Assembly (NCBI GenBank): GCA_005790565.1
Contig: SXUJ01000143.1
Coordinates: forward strand, 1-33,209
Length of the DNA stretch: 33,209 bases
Direction of reading: 5' to 3'
Origin: Planctomycetia bacterium
Lineage (GTDB): Bacteria; Planctomycetota; Phycisphaerae; Phycisphaerales; SM1A02
In this document: positions 23,436 to 32,924 of the stretch, one piece after another
Numbering within the stretch: the first letter of the stretch is position 1
Layout: each line of letters starts with the position of its first letter
Notes under the pieces: generated by a model
Databases searched by the model: none
The model's input: the letters and a program-made list of their open reading frames with translations, nothing else
What the model was told of the DNA's origin: nothing
Made by a program: the position numbers and the translations under genes

Positions 23436-24476
23436 ATGCTCGGTCCGGCAAGTCCAACCCGCGATACTGGTGCTGCTTCCGCGATGGCTCAGTCGCACGC
23501 GAGAGCGCAAAACATCCGCGCATTGGGTGATCACAAACGGTACAGCCGCGAGTACTGGTTGCATCTCCTGCTGTTCGCGTTCGCGATCTCGCTCACGCTC
23601 CACATTTGTGTGATGCTCTCGCTTTGGTGGTATCGGCAGCCGGCAGTCGATGCGCGGCGATTTGAAACCCCGGTCGAAATGAACCTTGCCGATGCGCAAG
23701 AAGCGATCACGCCGGACGAGCAGGTTGAATTACCTGATCCTTCCCCGCTCGCCGCGGGCGAGATCATGCCCGATCCCGATGAGATTCCGGCGCTGAGTTC
23801 CGAACTCGCAAGTGCTGATCCAACGCAAGACAGCTTCGGCATGACGCAAGCGCCAGGACCGGGGGGCATCGTTGGTCCTGGTGGTGCCGGTCAAGGGATC
23901 GGCGTCGGAAGTGGTCGAGGCGGCGGGGGGACGAGTTTCTTTGGCGTGGGTGGCCGCGGGACGAGATTCGCGTTTATCGTCGATGTCTCCGGCTCCATGC
24001 AAATGGACGACCGATTCGTGGTTGCCATGAACGAACTGAAGCGATCGATTGCTGCGCTCCCTGATTTTACGAGTTTTTATGTCGTGCTCTACTCCGATGA
24101 CAAGCGCATTCCGGATTGGGAGGAGAGTTGGATTCGTGCGTCGAAGGGCAACATCCTTCGCATGAAGAAGTGGATCGAAGAGCAATCTCCGGGAGGCGGA
24201 ACCTATCCGATGACCTCGTTCGAACGGGTGTATGAACTTCCTGCGTCGCCCGATGTCATCTTCTTTCTGACAGACGGCGAGATTCCGGGTGATGGGACGG
24301 CCGAGATCACTCGTCTCAACCATAAGCAGCGTCGCGCCTCGATCATCAACACGATCTGCTTTGGATCGGAGACCGGTCGAGCGGGGCTCGAACAGATTGC
24401 CCGCGAAAACGAAGGTGTTTTTCGCTTCGTCCCGGTGACCGGAGGCGTTCGCATCACAATCCCCGCATCGCCATGA
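23436..24476 (+). CDS. Membrane-anchored von Willebrand A protein with TonB-like transmembrane motif
   Basis: The 346-residue protein has a cytoplasmic N-terminus, one transmembrane helix at about 40-66, a Pro-rich then Gly-rich linker (about 100-175) and a von Willebrand factor A domain (176-346). The metal site is complete: DVSGS (183-187), Thr256 in GGGT and Asp280 in TDGE. The transmembrane helix carries S52-L-T-L-H56, the S-x-x-x-H pattern essential in TonB. ExbB and two ExbD genes follow, so this may be the energised arm of that motor. The start at 23436 has AGGA 5 bases upstream; the frame is open to 22905 over pyrH, which is rejected. Confidence 0.82.
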   Translation: MLGPASPTRDTGAASAMAQSHARAQNIRALGDHKRYSREYWLHLLLFAFAISLTLHICVMLSLWWYRQPAVDARRFETPVEMNLADAQEAITPDEQVELPDPSPLAAGEIMPDPDEIPALSSELASADPTQDSFGMTQAPGPGGIVGPGGAGQGIGVGSGRGGGGTSFFGVGGRGTRFAFIVDVSGSMQMDDRFVVAMNELKRSIAALPDFTSFYVVLYSDDKRIPDWEESWIRASKGNILRMKKWIEEQSPGGGTYPMTSFERVYELPASPDVIFFLTDGEIPGDGTAEITRLNHKQRRASIINTICFGSETGRAGLEQIARENEGVFRFVPVTGGVRITIPASP

Positions 24477-24485
24477 TCATGCTTT

Positions 24486-25661
24486 ATGTTTGACTTTCGC
24501 TCTTCGCAAATCTCGCTGTGCGCGCACACTGCAATCAGTGTGATCTACGCGTGCGCGCCGATGGCGGCCGCGGATGTACGGGTTGCCTTACGCGATGGTG
24601 GCACGGTGTTTGAGGGCGCGAGCGCGGTCGTTGACGACTCTGGCATTCGAGTGAAGGGCGCAGACGGGATCGATCAGGTTGCTTCATGGGATCAAGTCCG
24701 GACGGTTTCCGGTTCGACGGCGCCCGAGAGCATCGACGCGCAATTGAAACTCGGCGAGTTGCTCTGGCGTGCGCGAACAAGGGTCTTGCGCGGCGACTAT
24801 GAACTTGCGGAGCCGCTCTTGCACGAAGCGTGGCGATCTTTGCGCGAACCCCGTCAGCACGAACTTGGATACCTCGCCGCGGAAGGACTCTTGCGTTGCG
24901 CGCTTGCGCGAGGCGATTCGGTAGGCGCCCTTGAGCCGTGGATCCATATGGTTGCGATGCATGCGGCAGGACGCGCGCCGTTGGCGCCTCCGTTTTCTTC
25001 CCTCGGCCCCATCCTTGATGCAGGCACGCTCTTTTCGCGCGAGATCGCACCCTTTGCAACACCAGAAATCGCCGCTCGCGCGGCGCAGGTTCTTGAGACG
25101 CGGGTTGGTGCGGTGGCGGGAGGACCGTCGACCGTCGATCGATTCGCACGACTCCTTCGAGGTGCGCCCGAGCATGTGCAGCCCACGGCTGGCGCCTCAG
25201 TCGCGGAACAATTGCTCGCGAGCTTGGAAGAACTAGCGCTGGCGGAAACGGAACGCGACCGCGCGCGCCTTGCCGAGGGTTTCTTCGCGCTCGCGTGCAA
25301 AGCCGGCGGGGGCGAGGCGCCTCGCTTTCTCCTCGCATGGAGTTCGATGGTGCTCGGGCGCTCTCTTGTGGCACAAACTGCTCCTACGGCACAGGAGATC
25401 GGCGTCCTTGAACTGCTCACGGCTGCGGTCATCGAAGGCGAATCTGCACTCGGTCGACTCGCGCTCTCCGAGGCTGCGGCCGCGTGCCGGGCGCGGGGTG
25501 ATTCGAAGAGCGCAGCGATCATCGAACGGATCCATGCGGAAAACGATTTGAGCGTGCCCATCCTTGGTGCAGCGCAAAGTTCATCGAAGGCGCACGCCGC
25601 GGCACAGGTTGCGGCTGCACCCTCAGACGGTTCTCGATTGAAAGGTAACGAAACTCCATGA
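24486..25661 (+). CDS. Exported helical-repeat protein of unknown function
   Basis: I do not recognise this 391-residue protein. It has a signal-peptide-like N-terminus with a likely cleavage site after PMAAA (about residue 29). A short beta region follows (DVRVALRDGGTVFEGASAVVDD), then a long Ala-rich helical part resembling TPR repeats (LRGDYELAEPLLHEAWRSL). It starts 9 bases after the von Willebrand gene and overlaps the ExbB gene by 4 bases (ATGA), so it belongs to the same operon and is probably a periplasmic partner of the motor. Confidence 0.72.
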   Translation: MFDFRSSQISLCAHTAISVIYACAPMAAADVRVALRDGGTVFEGASAVVDDSGIRVKGADGIDQVASWDQVRTVSGSTAPESIDAQLKLGELLWRARTRVLRGDYELAEPLLHEAWRSLREPRQHELGYLAAEGLLRCALARGDSVGALEPWIHMVAMHAAGRAPLAPPFSSLGPILDAGTLFSREIAPFATPEIAARAAQVLETRVGAVAGGPSTVDRFARLLRGAPEHVQPTAGASVAEQLLASLEELALAETERDRARLAEGFFALACKAGGGEAPRFLLAWSSMVLGRSLVAQTAPTAQEIGVLELLTAAVIEGESALGRLALSEAAAACRARGDSKSAAIIERIHAENDLSVPILGAAQSSSKAHAAAQVAAAPSDGSRLKGNETP

Positions 25662-26371
25662 CGCATTTTCTCCTCCAAGCAGCCGCAAGTTCCACCAGCC
25701 CTTCGAACACGAGTAGTTCCGCGCTCAAGTTCATCACGGGCGGTGGAGTCATTGGCTACATCATCGTGCTCCTCTCGATCGTGGCGCTCGCGTTCGTGAT
25801 CATTCATTTCGTGCAGATTCGCGCAAGCGTGCAACTACCAAGAGATCGCATCAACGCCGTCAAGGAGTTGCTTGCGCGCGGGCAGTTTGAGCAAGCATTG
25901 CAGTACGCGCAGTTGCCGGCCAACGACTGCTACTTTTTGCGCATCCTCGCGCCGGGCCTCAAGCGATTCATCGCGTCGCCGTTCGGCGCGTTCGAAATGA
26001 AGAGTGCCCTCGAAGAGAGTGGATTGGAACAGACGGCACGCCTCTATCGCACGATGGATGTGATTGGCGTCATCGGTTCCGTCGGTCCATTGCTTGGACT
26101 GCTCGGGACTGTGCAGGGCATGATTGGCGCATTCGAAACGGTTGCGTCGAGCGCCGCGCATGACTCGACCTACTATGAGGCGCTTGCGTACAACATCGCG
26201 ATTGCGCTCATCACAACCTTCCAAGGTCTGGTGGTCGCGATCCCTTGCGTTTCGCTCTACAGCTTCTTCCGAAATCGCGTCGATCGTCTCGCAGGCGATG
26301 CGGCAGCGGAAATGGAAGAGGTTGTCGCGATCATCGAGAACAGCAGCAAGACCAAGTTGGCGCGCGTCTGA
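25658..26371 (+). CDS. MotA/TolQ/ExbB-family proton channel subunit
   Basis: The 237-residue protein has three transmembrane helices (about 32-54, 134-160 and 178-203), a cytoplasmic loop of about 80 residues and a short C-terminus, as in ExbB and TolQ. The family signature GPLLGLLGTVQGMI lies at 143-156 and the third helix carries threonines (Thr186-187) at the proton-path position. With ExbD it would form a channel that converts proton flow into motion. No tol-pal or TonB-dependent receptor gene is nearby, so ExbB versus TolQ cannot be assigned. It overlaps the genes on its left by 4 bases. Confidence 0.92.
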   Translation: MTHFLLQAAASSTSPSNTSSSALKFITGGGVIGYIIVLLSIVALAFVIIHFVQIRASVQLPRDRINAVKELLARGQFEQALQYAQLPANDCYFLRILAPGLKRFIASPFGAFEMKSALEESGLEQTARLYRTMDVIGVIGSVGPLLGLLGTVQGMIGAFETVASSAAHDSTYYEALAYNIAIALITTFQGLVVAIPCVSLYSFFRNRVDRLAGDAAAEMEEVVAIIENSSKTKLARV

Positions 26372-26397
26372 ACGCTGGTCGTAGAGAAGTTTCTCGC

Positions 26398-26826
26398 ATG
26401 CGTTTTTTCCCTCGCAATAGCAGCTCTCGCGCCGCAGTCGTCGACATGACGCCACTGATCGATATTGTGTTTCAACTGCTTATCTTCTTTCTCGTGACTG
26501 GCCAAGCGGCCCAACAAGCGCGCACGGAGTTGGCACTGCCAAAGGAACCAGGCCGCGAAGTCAACACGACCGAGCAGGCGGGTGTCGTGCTGAATGTGCT
26601 TGCCGATGGCAGCATCATCGTGAACGAGAACGCAGTTTCACTCGAACGCGTTGGCGAACTCGTCGCCGAGGCGGCTGCGCAAACGGAAGGTGGCGTGACC
26701 AAGCTCCGACCGCTCGTTCGGGCAGATCGTGGCGCACGCACCGATGTCCTCAACAGCGTTCTCGAACGCCTTTCGCAGGCCGGCGTGGTCGCCGTGCGCG
26801 TCGCGACGGAGGGAGCATCGAAATGA
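26398..26826 (+). CDS. ExbD/TolR-family protein, first copy
   Basis: The 142-residue protein has a short cytoplasmic N-terminus, one transmembrane helix (about 18-36) with the essential aspartate at Asp22 in MTPLIDIVFQLLIFFLV, and a periplasmic domain of about 100 residues. It would pair with the ExbB gene 26 bases upstream. The start at 26398 gives the usual short N-terminus; the longer open frame over exbB is rejected. It ends in an ATGA overlap with the second ExbD. Confidence 0.92.
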   Translation: MRFFPRNSSSRAAVVDMTPLIDIVFQLLIFFLVTGQAAQQARTELALPKEPGREVNTTEQAGVVLNVLADGSIIVNENAVSLERVGELVAEAAAQTEGGVTKLRPLVRADRGARTDVLNSVLERLSQAGVVAVRVATEGASK

Positions 26827-27236
26827 GATTTCGTCGAGCAGGAAGCGAGCGTGACCGCAAGCCGGAGATCAATCTCGCAGCGATGATTGATGCGACTTTC
26901 CTGCTCTTGGGTTACTTCTTGTTTACGCAGTCAGCGGCGTCGCGCGAAGCGCAACTTGATCCGCAGCTCGCAACGCAACAGGGGAGTAACAAGCGATCCG
27001 ATCTTGAGCCGCAGAATGTTGATGTACTTGAGGAAAACGGCGAGCGGGTCTACCGCGTGGGTGGTGCCACCTACGCCGACAAGGCATCACTCACCGAGGC
27101 GCTGCGGGCGTTGAATCCGGACGACAGCCTCTTCGTGCGGGTTCGAGATGGGGTGGACTTTGGATTTGCCGCTGCGGCGGTGCAGGCCGCGCATGATGCC
27201 GGATACAAGAATGTGACCTACGTGCCATTTCGTTGA
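26823..27236 (+). CDS. ExbD/TolR-family protein, second, divergent copy
   Basis: The 137-residue protein has the ExbD layout: a charged N-terminus, one transmembrane helix (about 17-36) with Asp23 in INLAAMIDATFLLLGYFLF, and a periplasmic domain. The Thr-Pro that usually precedes the helix aspartate is Ala-Ala. The periplasmic domain differs strongly from that of the first copy, so the motor may hold an ExbD heterodimer. The start overlaps the first copy by 4 bases; the following gene starts 10 bases after its stop. Confidence 0.88.
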   Translation: MRFRRAGSERDRKPEINLAAMIDATFLLLGYFLFTQSAASREAQLDPQLATQQGSNKRSDLEPQNVDVLEENGERVYRVGGATYADKASLTEALRALNPDDSLFVRVRDGVDFGFAAAAVQAAHDAGYKNVTYVPFR

Positions 27237-27246
27237 ATGAAACAAG

Positions 27247-29925
27247 ATGAGCGGACATGCGCATGCAACTCTTCGTCGTACCACCGCCCTGCTGGGCGTT
27301 GTGTTCGGACTTTGCATCGCGCCTGCGCACGCGGACGAAGTCGCTGATTGGCTTGAAGCGCGCGGCCTCGATGGGCTTCTCGCGACCCGGCTGGAGTTGA
27401 TCGCTCGAGATTCGACTGGCGAAGATCTCAAGCGGGTGCGCGAGCGATTGGTCGCGACTTACGCCCGCTTACTCGATCTCTCGGTCCGGGGCGCAGAGCG
27501 GGACGCGCTCATCGCGCGCGCAGAGGGAGCGCTTCGGGAGCGATCGGGATTCGCGTCGGACCTCCTCGACCTCGCCATCGCACGCGCGCGATATCGCACC
27601 GCGGCGGAAATCGCGGAGGACATGCGGGCGGCCGTGCGATTGCCGGCGGACGCGACTTCGCACGCCATGGCGCAACTCGCGGCGGTGCTCCCAGTGCTTG
27701 AGACATTGCAAACGCAGTCGCTCAAGCGAGCGCAGGATCTTGACCGACGCATCGATTCACTTGTGGGACTCACGCAGGATCTCGCACGGTCAGACATCAC
27801 GCGCGCCGAACAAATCGCCACGGAGTGTCGCTTTCTTCGCGCATGGGCGATGCTCTACAAAGGACTCCTCGGGGAGACGACCGCGGAGTCCGAAGCCGCC
27901 TCACAACTCTTCATGGAGATTGCAGGCGCACGCAGTGGTCGCCTTGAGCCGAGTGAGGTCTCCCTTGACTTGCGCACAGAGGAGTCCTTCGCGTCGACGA
28001 TCCTTGGAATCGGACTCGCCAAGGCGGAAACCCAGGGCTTTGGCGAAGCGTCGAGGTGGCTGAACTTGCTGGAGGTGCCGCAGGCCTTTGAGGGGATTCG
28101 AGCGCGCCTTGATGGGTGGCGTCTCGCCGCAGCCATCCGCGCGAAGGACTGGGTTGCGGCGAGGAGAATATTGAAGACACTCGGCGCCCAGCACGCCGTC
28201 GAAACGGCTTGGTTTCGTGTGGCTGCGGCGGGTGGGCTTCGTGCGGTGATCGCGGGCGCAGACGGAGGAGCGGCTCTCGGTCTTGCGCAAGAGGCGATCG
28301 CGCATCTCGCCACGCGGCGCGAACTCGCGCAGGTGCGAGACCTCGTGGAGCAGTTTGATGGGCGAGGAGTGGAAGGCGATGGATTCGTCGCTCGGTATGT
28401 CGCGTCGCTTTCGCTCTACGATGCAGCGCGAGCGTGCGATGAGGCACTTGTGCTCGCGATGGAGAGTGCGAGATCGCGTGGAACAAGCGTCGACACGGCG
28501 ATGAGTGAGAACTCGGGGCGCGTGCATCGTGACGCGCTCAAGAGCCTCGACGCGGCGCTCGCAGCAAAGGATGTGGAGCAGTATCCGGATGCGCGCGACG
28601 GGTGTCGCCTCATGCGTGCGTATTGCCTTCGTGGGGCGCGCGACCTTCGCGGCGCATCCGCCGCGTTTGACGAACTGGCGAGCACGCTGACGGGGGAGCG
28701 AGGCGAAGACGCAGCGTGGGCCGCGATTGCCTGCCTTGATGAACTTTCTCGCACTGTGCAAGGTCCGGAGCGAACAGCGCTCGACGCACAAATCGACGCC
28801 ATGAGTGAGGGTTTCCTCCGACGATTTCCAGCCTCGATGCGCGTCATTGAACTCTTCGTGCGGCGCGTGCAAGCGGATCCTCTTCCCGATGCAGCCGACA
28901 TCGAGAAGTTGCTCTCCGTGCCGAGCACAGAACCATCATTCGAGACTTCGCGACGGGCGGCGCTTGCTGGGCTTTACCGCAGTTTCCGTGCCTCCAAGGA
29001 TGTGCCTGAGCGGACAATCCTTGGCCGCCGATACATCGGCGTCTTGATGACCCTTCCAGAGGATCTCCGCGCGCAAGGACTTCCGTCGGGCAGTGTTGGC
29101 ATTGCGCGCCAAGCGCTTGAAGTTGCGCTGTCGCCAGAGGTCGCCGATACCTCTCTCGCTTCGCAACTTCTCGGCGCGATTGATGCGGCAATCGCGCGCG
29201 GGGAGTTCGAACTGTCGGAGGCGCGCCTCGAACTCGCTTACCGACGCTTGCAGTTGGCCATCACTCAGAATCAGTGGGAGTTGGTGGACAGCGGATTGTC
29301 GGAGTTCGAAAGACCCGACGCCGATCCGATGTGGGCGGATGCTGCACTTCGTCTTGCGATGCGTGGCGCGGAGTTGGCGCGGCGCGCAACGGCGAAGGAC
29401 GATCCCCGTCGCAGCGCGTTCGTCGCGACGAGTGTGCGCGCAGGGGATGCGTTGATCGCGCGAGACGGCGGTCTCGAAAAGGCGGTCAAGTCCACGGCAC
29501 ACCTAGCGGTCCTTCGTGCGCTGCTTGATGCGCGACGCGAGATGGTCCTCTCGAGTGCATCGCCGGAGGAAGCGAAGCAGGGGCTCAAGATCGCGCTCGC
29601 ACTGCTTGGCGCAGGGACTCGCGAGGCCGGGGTGCTGCAAAGCGCAGCGTTCTTCGCGGAATCAAGCGGAGAGTATGAAGTCGCGATCGAACAACTCAAG
29701 GCGCTCGTTGCGGGGGTGCCTTCCCGCACGGAACCGTGGTTTCGCGCGAAGTACGACCTCGCTCGTGTGCTGTTGCGTATTGATCCCGTGCGTAGTCTCG
29801 CGGTGCTTGCGCAACACCGCAAATTGCACCCCGATCTTGGACCGCCGGCGTGGAAGGCGAAGTTTGAGGCGTTAGAAGTTGAGGCGAGGCAAAAGCAGGG
29901 CGCGGTGGCGGGAGGGGCGTCATGA
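27247..29925 (+). CDS. Large exported TPR-like helical-repeat protein
   Basis: The 892-residue product begins with a signal peptide ending APAHA (residue 29). The rest is almost wholly helical and Ala/Arg/Glu-rich. Near the C-terminus TPR-like units can be read (FFAESSGEYEVAIEQLKALV), followed by RAKYDLARVLLRIDP. It has no catalytic motif I can recognise. It lies 10 bases after the second ExbD gene and overlaps the next gene by 4 bases, so it should be made with the motor and act in the periplasm, perhaps as a scaffold (inference). Confidence 0.75.
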   Translation: MSGHAHATLRRTTALLGVVFGLCIAPAHADEVADWLEARGLDGLLATRLELIARDSTGEDLKRVRERLVATYARLLDLSVRGAERDALIARAEGALRERSGFASDLLDLAIARARYRTAAEIAEDMRAAVRLPADATSHAMAQLAAVLPVLETLQTQSLKRAQDLDRRIDSLVGLTQDLARSDITRAEQIATECRFLRAWAMLYKGLLGETTAESEAASQLFMEIAGARSGRLEPSEVSLDLRTEESFASTILGIGLAKAETQGFGEASRWLNLLEVPQAFEGIRARLDGWRLAAAIRAKDWVAARRILKTLGAQHAVETAWFRVAAAGGLRAVIAGADGGAALGLAQEAIAHLATRRELAQVRDLVEQFDGRGVEGDGFVARYVASLSLYDAARACDEALVLAMESARSRGTSVDTAMSENSGRVHRDALKSLDAALAAKDVEQYPDARDGCRLMRAYCLRGARDLRGASAAFDELASTLTGERGEDAAWAAIACLDELSRTVQGPERTALDAQIDAMSEGFLRRFPASMRVIELFVRRVQADPLPDAADIEKLLSVPSTEPSFETSRRAALAGLYRSFRASKDVPERTILGRRYIGVLMTLPEDLRAQGLPSGSVGIARQALEVALSPEVADTSLASQLLGAIDAAIARGEFELSEARLELAYRRLQLAITQNQWELVDSGLSEFERPDADPMWADAALRLAMRGAELARRATAKDDPRRSAFVATSVRAGDALIARDGGLEKAVKSTAHLAVLRALLDARREMVLSSASPEEAKQGLKIALALLGAGTREAGVLQSAAFFAESSGEYEVAIEQLKALVAGVPSRTEPWFRAKYDLARVLLRIDPVRSLAVLAQHRKLHPDLGPPAWKAKFEALEVEARQKQGAVAGGAS

Positions 29926-32924
29926 GCCTTGCTTCTATCGAGCGGTTCATCGCGATCGGGAAGGACAAGAGCGCGCGAGGAGTCTTGGGACTCGGCGCGG
30001 GCACGCTGAGCTTTGGCATAGTGGAAGCGGCACTTGCCCGTCGGATCGAAAAGGTGCGCAGCCATCCTCTGTCGGATTCTCCCGAGGCCGCGCGTGCGAT
30101 CGGGCACTTAGAAGCACTCGCGCGCGAACTGGAGCTCGAGATTTCGCTCGTGGGCGAACCGAGTGCCGCGCCCGTACACCCGCTTGCGAAACAGCGCATC
30201 GAGGCGCCTTCGCCGCAAGGATCGCTCGCCCACACGCCCGTGCGACCGAGGGGTGGAGTGACCGAGGAGCAATTGACGGAGTTCGACCGCGTCGTGTTGA
30301 CGATTCTCGTCGCGGGCGGCGGCTGGAATCCGAGGACCGCTGCGCAACTTGCCGCACTCAGTGCCGAACATGGCGTGAGCAGTGAGGGCTTGCACCTCGT
30401 GGTGGCGGGGCTCGCGAAGTTTATGCGGGACGGCGGCGCTGCCGCGCTCCGCAAGGATCTCGGTTCGGTCGGTGTTTCTGCCGAACAACTCCACGCGCAT
30501 CATGTGCGCAAGGCAAGCGCGGCGGAAGCAGCAGTGGATCGCATCACCAGTTCGATTGGTGACGAAATGCGTGGCCGTTCGCCATGGTCTGCGTTGCGGC
30601 TGACCGCATTTTTTGGAACGGTTGCCGTGGGAATCACGCTCGCGATTGTTTGGATGATCGTGCGTGGCGCCACGACGCAGGAAGAGATGATCATCGCCCC
30701 AACGCCGCGAGTGCTTGCAGAATCCGCGTCCACGCAGCGCGAGAGAACCGCAGCGGATCTTGCGCAGAAGTTCTCGCCTCCGGATACCAACATCGAGGCC
30801 CTCGCAGCGCCCGCCAAATTCGCACGCGCGCCAGGATTTGCGTCGAGTCCCACGCCCGCGCAAACCCTACTCCTCTCCAATCAGTGGCCGGACTTTCTTA
30901 CATCGCTCGATGAACTTGCGCGCAAGTTGAAAACCAATCGAGGTCGCCTCGAAGGCTCCAACGCCGCTGAACTCGCAAGTTGCGCACGCTTGGCTGGCGA
31001 GTCGTGGGCGGTTTCGGGTGCATTTCGCGCCGAGTTCGTCACGGGCGTGGTGCAGCTCGCGCGCGCAGTCCACGGGGATGAGAGTGCGCGTGCGCTGTTG
31101 CTGGCGTTGCACGGAATTCCGGCGTCCTCGGCCGGCGCAGATCGCGTGCCACTGTGGAAAGAAGTCTGGCAGGCAGCGTTCGCCGCGGGATTGACGGCAG
31201 AACTGTTGGGTGATCCGGAAGTAGGTGGCGAAGTTGCAGCCGCGGCGCGCGAGTCGTTGCGTCGCGAGGGCATCACGAGCTTGGCGAATGCAGGAAGCAA
31301 TCGATTTGGAGTCGCCGCTATCTCCAGTCTCACCCGTGATGCAGTCGCGCTCGCGGATGGAACGGACTCAGGCAGTGCATCAGTCACCCTTGATGATTGG
31401 TCCCGCTGGCTTGAAGCGGTCGACGCAGCGGGTTCGACTGCGAAGCTCCGTGAGGCGGCGCGGCTCGCAGCGATGGAAGCGCTCTTACATAGCGCGGCAC
31501 CGATTGACTTGCAGAACACCGCGAGTGATGCGCTCGGCCGACTCATGACGGATATTGATTGGTCGAACCGTGGTGTGAGTGGTGATCAAGCGCGTACGGC
31601 GTTTGGCGCGTGGTTTGCAAACCCTTCGATTCTTGCGACGCGATTGTGGGTGCTCACGAGCATGCTCGACCGCAATCATCGCATCGGATGGTTTTCTCCT
31701 GAAATGGTGCTTCCGGTGGACGCGAATGTGAACCGGCGCGATGCGGCACTGCAGCGGATTCTTGCGGCATGGCCAAAGTCGGTCGGTGGTGTCGAGGGAG
31801 AGATGCTCGCGTTTGCAGGCGTCACTGTGGAATTGCTGCGAAGCACCAACACAGAACTCTCAGCACATGCCGCAAGGCCGCAGGATGACATCGAAGCGCT
31901 CGCCATCGCGAACGGCGCATTGCAATCCGTGCTCGCGGTTCGACTTCTTGAGGCGGGGAAATCCACGCAGGCGAATGCGGCGCTCGAAAGCGCCACCGAT
32001 GCGCTCAAGTTTGATCGAAGTGCATTGGAAGCGCCGTTTTCGGGCGACGGCGGATTGCGGCCGTCGGGCATCAAGGATGGCGAGTGGGCAACAGAGTTCG
32101 CGCAACCAGGTCTGAATGCCGAATCGCGGCAGAGGCTCATCGCCTCGCTTCGCGCGCTTCCTGCGGCGGGCGATCTTGGACCACGCGACGCGGAGGTCCT
32201 CGCGCGCGAATCCTTCCAAGGAAACGCGGCGGACATTCGCCGAGAGGCGCAGGGCGCAATCGCGGACAAGTTCGCGAGCGGAAGAACCGTGCTGCTCGCG
32301 GTGCTTGACGCGCTGACGGAGTCGAAGCCCCGTGAGGAATTCGCGGGCTTTCTGGCGGCGTTGTTGAATCGTGAATTCACTGGACGCGACTGGATACCAA
32401 TTGCGCGCGCGGCGCTCGTGGATCGCATCCTCTCGCTCGAGTCGAGCCGCGAGGCGGCGGTGGATCGACTCGCGGCGCGAGTGGCGGCGAGTGCCGTGAG
32501 CTTGACCGCGCAGTACGCCCCAAACTCCGCGCCCACGGATCTTGCGCCGAGCATGGATACCTCCATTGCCATGTTGGCCACCGCGTTGCGCGCCAATGCC
32601 GAAGAACGATTCCTCTCTGAGCCGTTTCCTGCTTCGCCTGGAGAACTCGACCGACTGCGGATCGCACGACGCGGCCTTGCGGATGGAGCAATGCAACGCG
32701 CGGTTGCGGATGCGGCTTCATTGCTTGAGCACGCGACGGCAATCGAAGCGGCGCGCCGACCGCAGTCGATCTCCGCGCTTCGCGAGATTCTTGCGGAAAC
32801 GATGCTTGCGCGAAGTCAAGCGCAGAGCGCATCGGCGCAACTTGCGATCACGCTGTGCGCGCTCGCGCGCGTGTCGATGGTCAATGTTGAGTCTGAGGCA
32901 GTGGATCGGGAGGATGCAGCGTGA
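29922..32924 (+). CDS. 1000-residue single-pass membrane protein of unknown function
   Basis: No signal peptide is seen. The first 225 residues are soluble and presumably cytoplasmic, with two helical blocks (about 1-70 and 110-170). One transmembrane helix follows at about 226-248 (AFFGTVAVGITLAIVWMIVRG). The remaining 750 residues, presumably periplasmic, are helical and Ala-rich, without recognised motifs. The build, a cytoplasmic domain joined to a long periplasmic arm, suits a link between the cell interior and the ExbB-ExbD motor. It starts at an ATGA overlap and ends at a GTGA overlap. Confidence 0.75.
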   Translation: MSLASIERFIAIGKDKSARGVLGLGAGTLSFGIVEAALARRIEKVRSHPLSDSPEAARAIGHLEALARELELEISLVGEPSAAPVHPLAKQRIEAPSPQGSLAHTPVRPRGGVTEEQLTEFDRVVLTILVAGGGWNPRTAAQLAALSAEHGVSSEGLHLVVAGLAKFMRDGGAAALRKDLGSVGVSAEQLHAHHVRKASAAEAAVDRITSSIGDEMRGRSPWSALRLTAFFGTVAVGITLAIVWMIVRGATTQEEMIIAPTPRVLAESASTQRERTAADLAQKFSPPDTNIEALAAPAKFARAPGFASSPTPAQTLLLSNQWPDFLTSLDELARKLKTNRGRLEGSNAAELASCARLAGESWAVSGAFRAEFVTGVVQLARAVHGDESARALLLALHGIPASSAGADRVPLWKEVWQAAFAAGLTAELLGDPEVGGEVAAAARESLRREGITSLANAGSNRFGVAAISSLTRDAVALADGTDSGSASVTLDDWSRWLEAVDAAGSTAKLREAARLAAMEALLHSAAPIDLQNTASDALGRLMTDIDWSNRGVSGDQARTAFGAWFANPSILATRLWVLTSMLDRNHRIGWFSPEMVLPVDANVNRRDAALQRILAAWPKSVGGVEGEMLAFAGVTVELLRSTNTELSAHAARPQDDIEALAIANGALQSVLAVRLLEAGKSTQANAALESATDALKFDRSALEAPFSGDGGLRPSGIKDGEWATEFAQPGLNAESRQRLIASLRALPAAGDLGPRDAEVLARESFQGNAADIRREAQGAIADKFASGRTVLLAVLDALTESKPREEFAGFLAALLNREFTGRDWIPIARAALVDRILSLESSREAAVDRLAARVAASAVSLTAQYAPNSAPTDLAPSMDTSIAMLATALRANAEERFLSEPFPASPGELDRLRIARRGLADGAMQRAVADAASLLEHATAIEAARRPQSISALREILAETMLARSQAQSASAQLAITLCALARVSMVNVESEAVDREDAA

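Follow-up and report, generated by a model that had tools for sequence, protein, structure and literature searches.

A von Willebrand A protein with a TonB-like membrane helix in a conserved ExbB–ExbD–ExbD gene cassette of planctomycetes

Results

A cassette of seven genes

The window, by which we mean the whole 33,209-nucleotide stretch of DNA analysed here, carries a run of genes ordered VWA, orf5, exbB, exbD, exbD, orf6 and orf7 that extends through position 32924, with small gaps or four-base overlaps between neighbours. Its genes and their features are the following:

23436..24476, + strand: von Willebrand A (VWA) force-transducer-like protein, 346 aa, with a transmembrane helix, a disordered linker and a VWA domain
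23568..23624, + strand: single transmembrane segment, residues 45–63 (AlphaFold2, sequence scan)
23589..23603, + strand: S52-L-T-L-H56, S-x3-H motor-coupling motif as defined in PMC12215075
23655..23915, + strand: disordered Pro/Gly/acidic linker, residues 74–160 (AlphaFold2, composition)
23670..23690, + strand: candidate motor box P79-V-E-M-N-L-A85, predicted to bind ExbD (from the make-up of the alignment columns)
23925..24434, + strand: VWA domain, residues 164–333, with a complete MIDAS (Pfam, alignment, AlphaFold2, Foldseek)
24486..25661, + strand: orf5, 391 aa, probably secreted, with an N-terminal beta domain and TPR-like helical repeats
25658..26371, + strand: ExbB/TolQ-like channel protein (Pfam) with near-invariant S40, T151, T187 and P196
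26398..26826, + strand: ExbD/TolR-like protein 1 (Pfam) with invariant D24 (P0003 numbering)
26823..27236, + strand: ExbD/TolR-like protein 2 (Pfam) with invariant D23
27247..29925, + strand: orf6, 892 aa, probably secreted and TPR-like, fused to orf5 in some relatives
29922..32924, + strand: orf7, 1000 aa, with one transmembrane segment near residues 229–247 and a large, probably periplasmic C-terminal part

Across the cassette, only VWA, MotA_ExbB and ExbD were recognised by Pfam. The first-pass annotation had placed genes for a channel and two ExbD proteins after the VWA gene, and ExbB and both ExbDs indeed score above the Pfam cut-offs; it did not mention orf5, located between the VWA gene and exbB, nor the two genes onward to the end of the cassette. 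Matches of orf5 to TPR models are weak. The orf6 product of the window has no Pfam match, and those of several family members match TPR models. For orf7, no known family was recognised; a J-domain-like appearance of its N-terminus (LGL ... HP ...; window 29922–30100, L138 13621–13850) had no Pfam support and is not claimed.

Nearly every family locus of sufficient length has the order VWA–orf5–ExbB–ExbD–ExbD–orf6–orf7, in line with the gene-order conservation that had been proposed as a check. Of 91 loci with enough upstream sequence, 88 have pyrH beside the cassette and 80 have frr; given this fixed place, the cassette is inherited vertically. A scan of named genomes found the same features in Phycisphaerales and other Planctomycetota.

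Architecture of the VWA protein

The start of the VWA protein is uncertain, with an alternative ATG at 23484. Residues 45–63 LLFAFAISLTLHICVMLSL form its only hydrophobic segment and contain no Asp. The S-x3-H pattern is present once across the entire protein, inside this segment; L63 completes S-x3-H-x6-L, and R67 replaces the last Ser of SHLS. In cryo-EM structures, the Ser and His of S-x3-H-x6-L in TonB and TolA contact ExbB and TolQ, and the Leu and the last Ser of the helix motif are less conserved in TonB too (PMC12215075).

An AlphaFold2 monomer prediction run with 31 sequences gave a helix spanning residues 12–66 (pLDDT >90 near the membrane part), disorder in residues 74–160 (pLDDT <50; 12 Pro and 13 Gly in its 87 residues) and a confident VWA fold for residues 164–333. 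The candidate motor box within the linker has an alternating hydrophobic pattern, V80-x-M82-x-L84-A, of only moderate conservation in the homologue alignment. The VWA domain matches Pfam VWA_3 above the cut-off, and Foldseek against the PDB returned VWA/I-domain folds, including integrin I-type domains and BatB; a PDB sequence search with the protein gave no match at E 0.1. Its metal site is complete (D183-x-S185-x-S187, T256 and D280). Model and alignment thus agree with the first-pass description of a Pro-rich linker followed by a VWA domain with a full metal site in place of the TonB C-terminal domain. Because the N-terminus preceding the helix is basic, the positive-inside rule would place the VWA domain in the periplasm.

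Conservation of the motif, the metal site and the motor

We searched 101 genomes of the window's family, fetched the loci with their flanks and aligned 90 VWA homologues; a match to the VWA protein was present in 96 of the 101 genomes. S52 is Ser in 86/90 homologues, H56 is His in 84/90 and L63 is Leu in 78/90. The Ser and the His are the only near-invariant columns of the helix, the remaining positions varying among hydrophobic residues, and the S...H pattern appears in just 3 of 656 background membrane-like segments taken from other reading frames. The TonB-like character ascribed to the S-L-T-L-H helix is therefore real. Neither of the two conditions named in advance as refuting it holds: the two residues are conserved, and most homologues adjoin exbB/exbD genes. 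The metal site is retained to a similar degree, with its Asp and two Ser residues found in all 90 homologues and its Thr and last Asp in 86 each.

Exceptions to the motif are few. Ala replaces the Ser in two related loci (L053 and L054), which keep the motor genes where the contig shows them, and Asn replaces the motor-coupling His in one genus (L024, L030 and L039), with the motor genes still adjacent in L030 and L039. In L074, L080 and L085 the motif is absent and no cassette ExbB is adjacent in the stretch examined. Motor and S-x3-H helix are both missing in the VWA relatives L074, L177 and, on a short contig, L080, which favours a link between the two.

The residues expected of a working motor are conserved as well. 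In ExbB, the ring threonines T151 (70/70) and T187 (69/69), the helix proline P196 (69/69) and S40 (77 of 78 homologues) hardly vary, and the pore Asp is present in every homologue of both ExbD 1 (D24, 68/68) and ExbD 2 (D23, 67/67). By motif comparison, S40 is the probable counterpart of the TonB-contacting Ser34 of E. coli, an equivalence drawn in this way because the PDB alignment did not cover the first ExbB helix. At position 44, the place of the E. coli Trp38 that contacts the TonB His, the homologues have Leu, Val or Met and no Trp, and the contact network thus differs in part from that of E. coli. Judged by its residues, the ExbB–ExbD–ExbD motor appears competent, and since the two ExbDs are distinguishable families, they likely form a heterodimer.

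VWA genes separated from the motor

Two sampling routes together yielded 110 S-x3-H VWA genes with ExbB near and 13 without it despite sufficient room. The four-way table of motif against motor rests on automatic helix finding, which scored L064, L078 and L169 as helix-less even though they show S-x3-H, and its Fisher p of 0.0002 is indicative only, the related genomes being non-independent and a few of them being counted in both routes.

The cassettes of one genus of the family, and those of some other Phycisphaerales, contain VWA, orf5 and orf6 but lack exbB–exbD–exbD. Seven such genomes carry a free-standing ExbB–ExbD1–ExbD2 set elsewhere, its second ExbD being of the cassette type. In a tree of 63 ExbBs, the seven relocated ExbBs form one group (100/100) within the cassette group (99/97); none of the other ExbBs sampled in these genomes groups with them. 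This placement in the cassette clade indicates that the motor moved rather than being lost. Moreover, orf5 and orf6 form a single protein in five loci of the motor-less lineage (L052, L057, L061, L121 and L122), which suggests that their products work together.

The argument that homologues lacking an adjacent exbB disprove coupling was therefore rejected for the fusion lineage and its relatives, in which the orthologous motor lies elsewhere, with genome G104 and several Planctomycetia excepted. A cassette-type motor was not found in G104, the genome behind L149, and the Planctomycetia VWA genes with S-x3-H and no ExbB nearby are those of L136, L155, L160, L171, L172, L173 and L183. In L172 (8452–10463), the S-x3-H VWA protein without ExbB is followed by a secreted protein resembling orf5.

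Further systems in the genome and the TonB/Tol setting

The window's own genome (G000) encodes a paralogous set on another contig (L223, 3261–8558, − strand), consisting of a second VWA protein (VWA'), ExbB, two ExbDs and an 840-aa protein; further genomes of the family have comparable sets (L089 to L092). The helix of VWA' reads S-I-A-I-H, and the last Asp of its metal site is replaced, so that this domain may not bind metal. The same genome has a third ExbB-like gene (L224, 6501–7220, − strand), next to which no transducer or ExbD was recognisable.

Of 61 family genomes, 21 have a TonB_C match above the cut-off; about two thirds of those sampled, the window's own genome among them, have none. 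A TonB-dependent receptor barrel likewise occurs in 21/61, with one copy in the window's own genome. TolB_N was above the cut-off in none of 31 family genomes, and an OmpA domain is present in 60/61. Given this distribution of TonB and its receptors, and with the VWA cassette being much commoner than TonB in the family, the cassette is not an accessory of TonB transport.

Discussion

The first-pass annotation took the locus to be an undescribed system. The class, however, is already contained in Williams-Jones et al. 2025 (PMC12204202), whose section on 'vWA force transducers' defines them by an SHLS helix, a motor box, a disordered linker and a VWA domain, describes loci with tolQ-like, paired tolR-like and TPR genes in Planctomycetes and other phyla, and presents complex models that place the transducer helix at the TonB/TolA site. 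As in that account, the window combines the SHL of the motif, a disordered linker comparable to the one of about 100 residues given there, a C-terminal VWA domain, a TolQ-like protein and an unlike pair of TolR-like proteins. In helix, linker, VWA fold, motor genes and TPR gene, the system has the tested features of the vWA force transducer (SHLS) class. It differs in gene order, as the PVC-group loci described there have the VWA gene after the TPR and motor genes, whereas in the window it comes first. The section text of PMC12204202 does not contain orf5, orf7, the conservation of the metal site, the motor relocation or the orf5–orf6 fusion, and in the open-access literature we found no description of the system beyond Williams-Jones et al. 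2025.

The S-x3-H-x6-L helix, the linker and the ExbB and ExbD residues are shared with TonB–ExbB–ExbD, and the helix motif and motor type with TolA–TolQ–TolR (Tol-Pal). Unlike the former, the system has no TonB C-terminal domain and possesses two different ExbDs; unlike the latter, it has a VWA domain in place of TolA domain III. Membership of the VWA protein in TonB/TolA is ruled out, as its C-terminal domain is a VWA domain and Pfam gave no TonB_C match in it. The Vibrio TonB2 system includes a true TonB, serves iron uptake and, to our knowledge, has no VWA protein. What it shares with the cassette is a motor–transducer operon encoding proteins beyond ExbB, ExbD and TonB (PMC6957404). The TPH-vWA proteins, as described in the section text of PMC12204202, also combine a VWA domain and one transmembrane helix beside a TolQ-like gene, yet they lack both SHLS and ExbD genes and have an Asp within the helix; the window system is the reverse in each respect, and its SHL, Asp-free helix and two ExbDs rule out that class.

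We consider it probable that the VWA protein is a vWA force transducer driven by the ExbB–ExbD1–ExbD2 motor. Its N-terminus would lie in the cytoplasm and its helix would pack on the outside of the ExbB pentamer via S52 and H56, with the VWA domain held in the periplasm on a flexible linker of about 87 residues. Proton flow through ExbB around the ExbD dimer, probably a heterodimer, would move the arm in the manner of TonB and TolA, and the metal-site VWA domain would grip a periplasmic or outer-membrane partner and pull or remodel it. The secreted TPR-like orf5 and orf6 products would form one periplasmic assembly, most likely within the partner complex or scaffolding the partner. We infer complex formation, the force, its direction and the ligand of the arm; the motif, the motor residues, the gene order and the relocation all agree with the earlier proposal of a TonB-like arm coupled to this proton motor. 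Speaking against this reading are the missing Trp of ExbB, the loci that keep the motor genes despite Asn or Ala in the motif, genome G104 and the Planctomycetia S-x3-H genes with no ExbB beside them.

The same contacts between helix and ExbB would be conserved if the protein were a gate rather than a transducer, with its VWA domain sensing a ligand, its helix switching proton flow, and the ExbD periplasmic domains, together with the TPR proteins, carrying out the work of ExbB–ExbD. The Ser and His of TonB have been proposed to signal to ExbB Pro190 (PMC12215075), whose equivalent is invariant here, and two unlike ExbDs together with large TPR partners could form the working end. Nevertheless, a gate seems unlikely to us, as the TonB-like layout and the long disordered linker are better suited to an arm that reaches out than to a sensor fixed in place. 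The VWA protein could also be an assembly factor, the role proposed for MoxR/Bat-type VWA proteins, and merely share an operon with the motor, its S-x3-H being a family relic; the Foldseek matches to BatB, the relatives without a motor and the genus without the His are compatible with this. We give the idea little credence, however: no other helix position is conserved as well as the Ser and the His, the motor has been retained where it left the operon, and none of the cassette genes encodes a MoxR ATPase.

That the arm is a motor-driven, metal-dependent adhesin, as first suggested, could account for the complete and conserved MIDAS and for the Foldseek matches, which include integrin I-type domains among other VWA domains. 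Of that suggestion, the periplasmic placement follows from topology, but adhesion is unsupported, the conserved metal site indicating metal-dependent ligand binding and no more. VWA domains act just as well in assembly, both inside cells and in the periplasm. Furthermore, the domain would be tethered to the inner membrane, no gene for a surface-exposed partner was recognised in the cassette, and near-universal presence in the family with vertical inheritance beside pyrH–frr is unlike typical adhesins. Adhesion is thus, in our estimation, the least probable of these explanations.

For the force transducer that we favour, a Tol-like role is possible. A more far-reaching proposal, which we regard as rather doubtful, is that the cassette serves the family as its main means of transmitting force across the envelope and does a Tol-like job, with the VWA arm pulling an orf5–orf6 periplasmic scaffold. 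Such a scaffold would connect inner membrane, cell wall and outer membrane; most of these cells lack TonB, and TolB was not found above the cut-off in 31 family genomes.

In the textbook view, energy from the inner membrane reaches the outer membrane by way of two arms, TonB and TolA; the vWA arm, announced in 2025, is a third type. To this picture, the present analysis adds that the arm belongs to a cassette of seven genes, that motif and metal site are strictly conserved apart from the exceptions described, that the motor relocated in a lineage where orf5 and orf6 are fused in five loci, and that TonB and TolB contrast with the cassette in their occurrence. A match to the VWA protein in 96 of 101 family genomes, as against TonB in roughly one third and no TolB over the cut-off, suggests a core role in the envelope; the defined set of genes, the partners they encode and the point mutations they allow offer a way to find that role.
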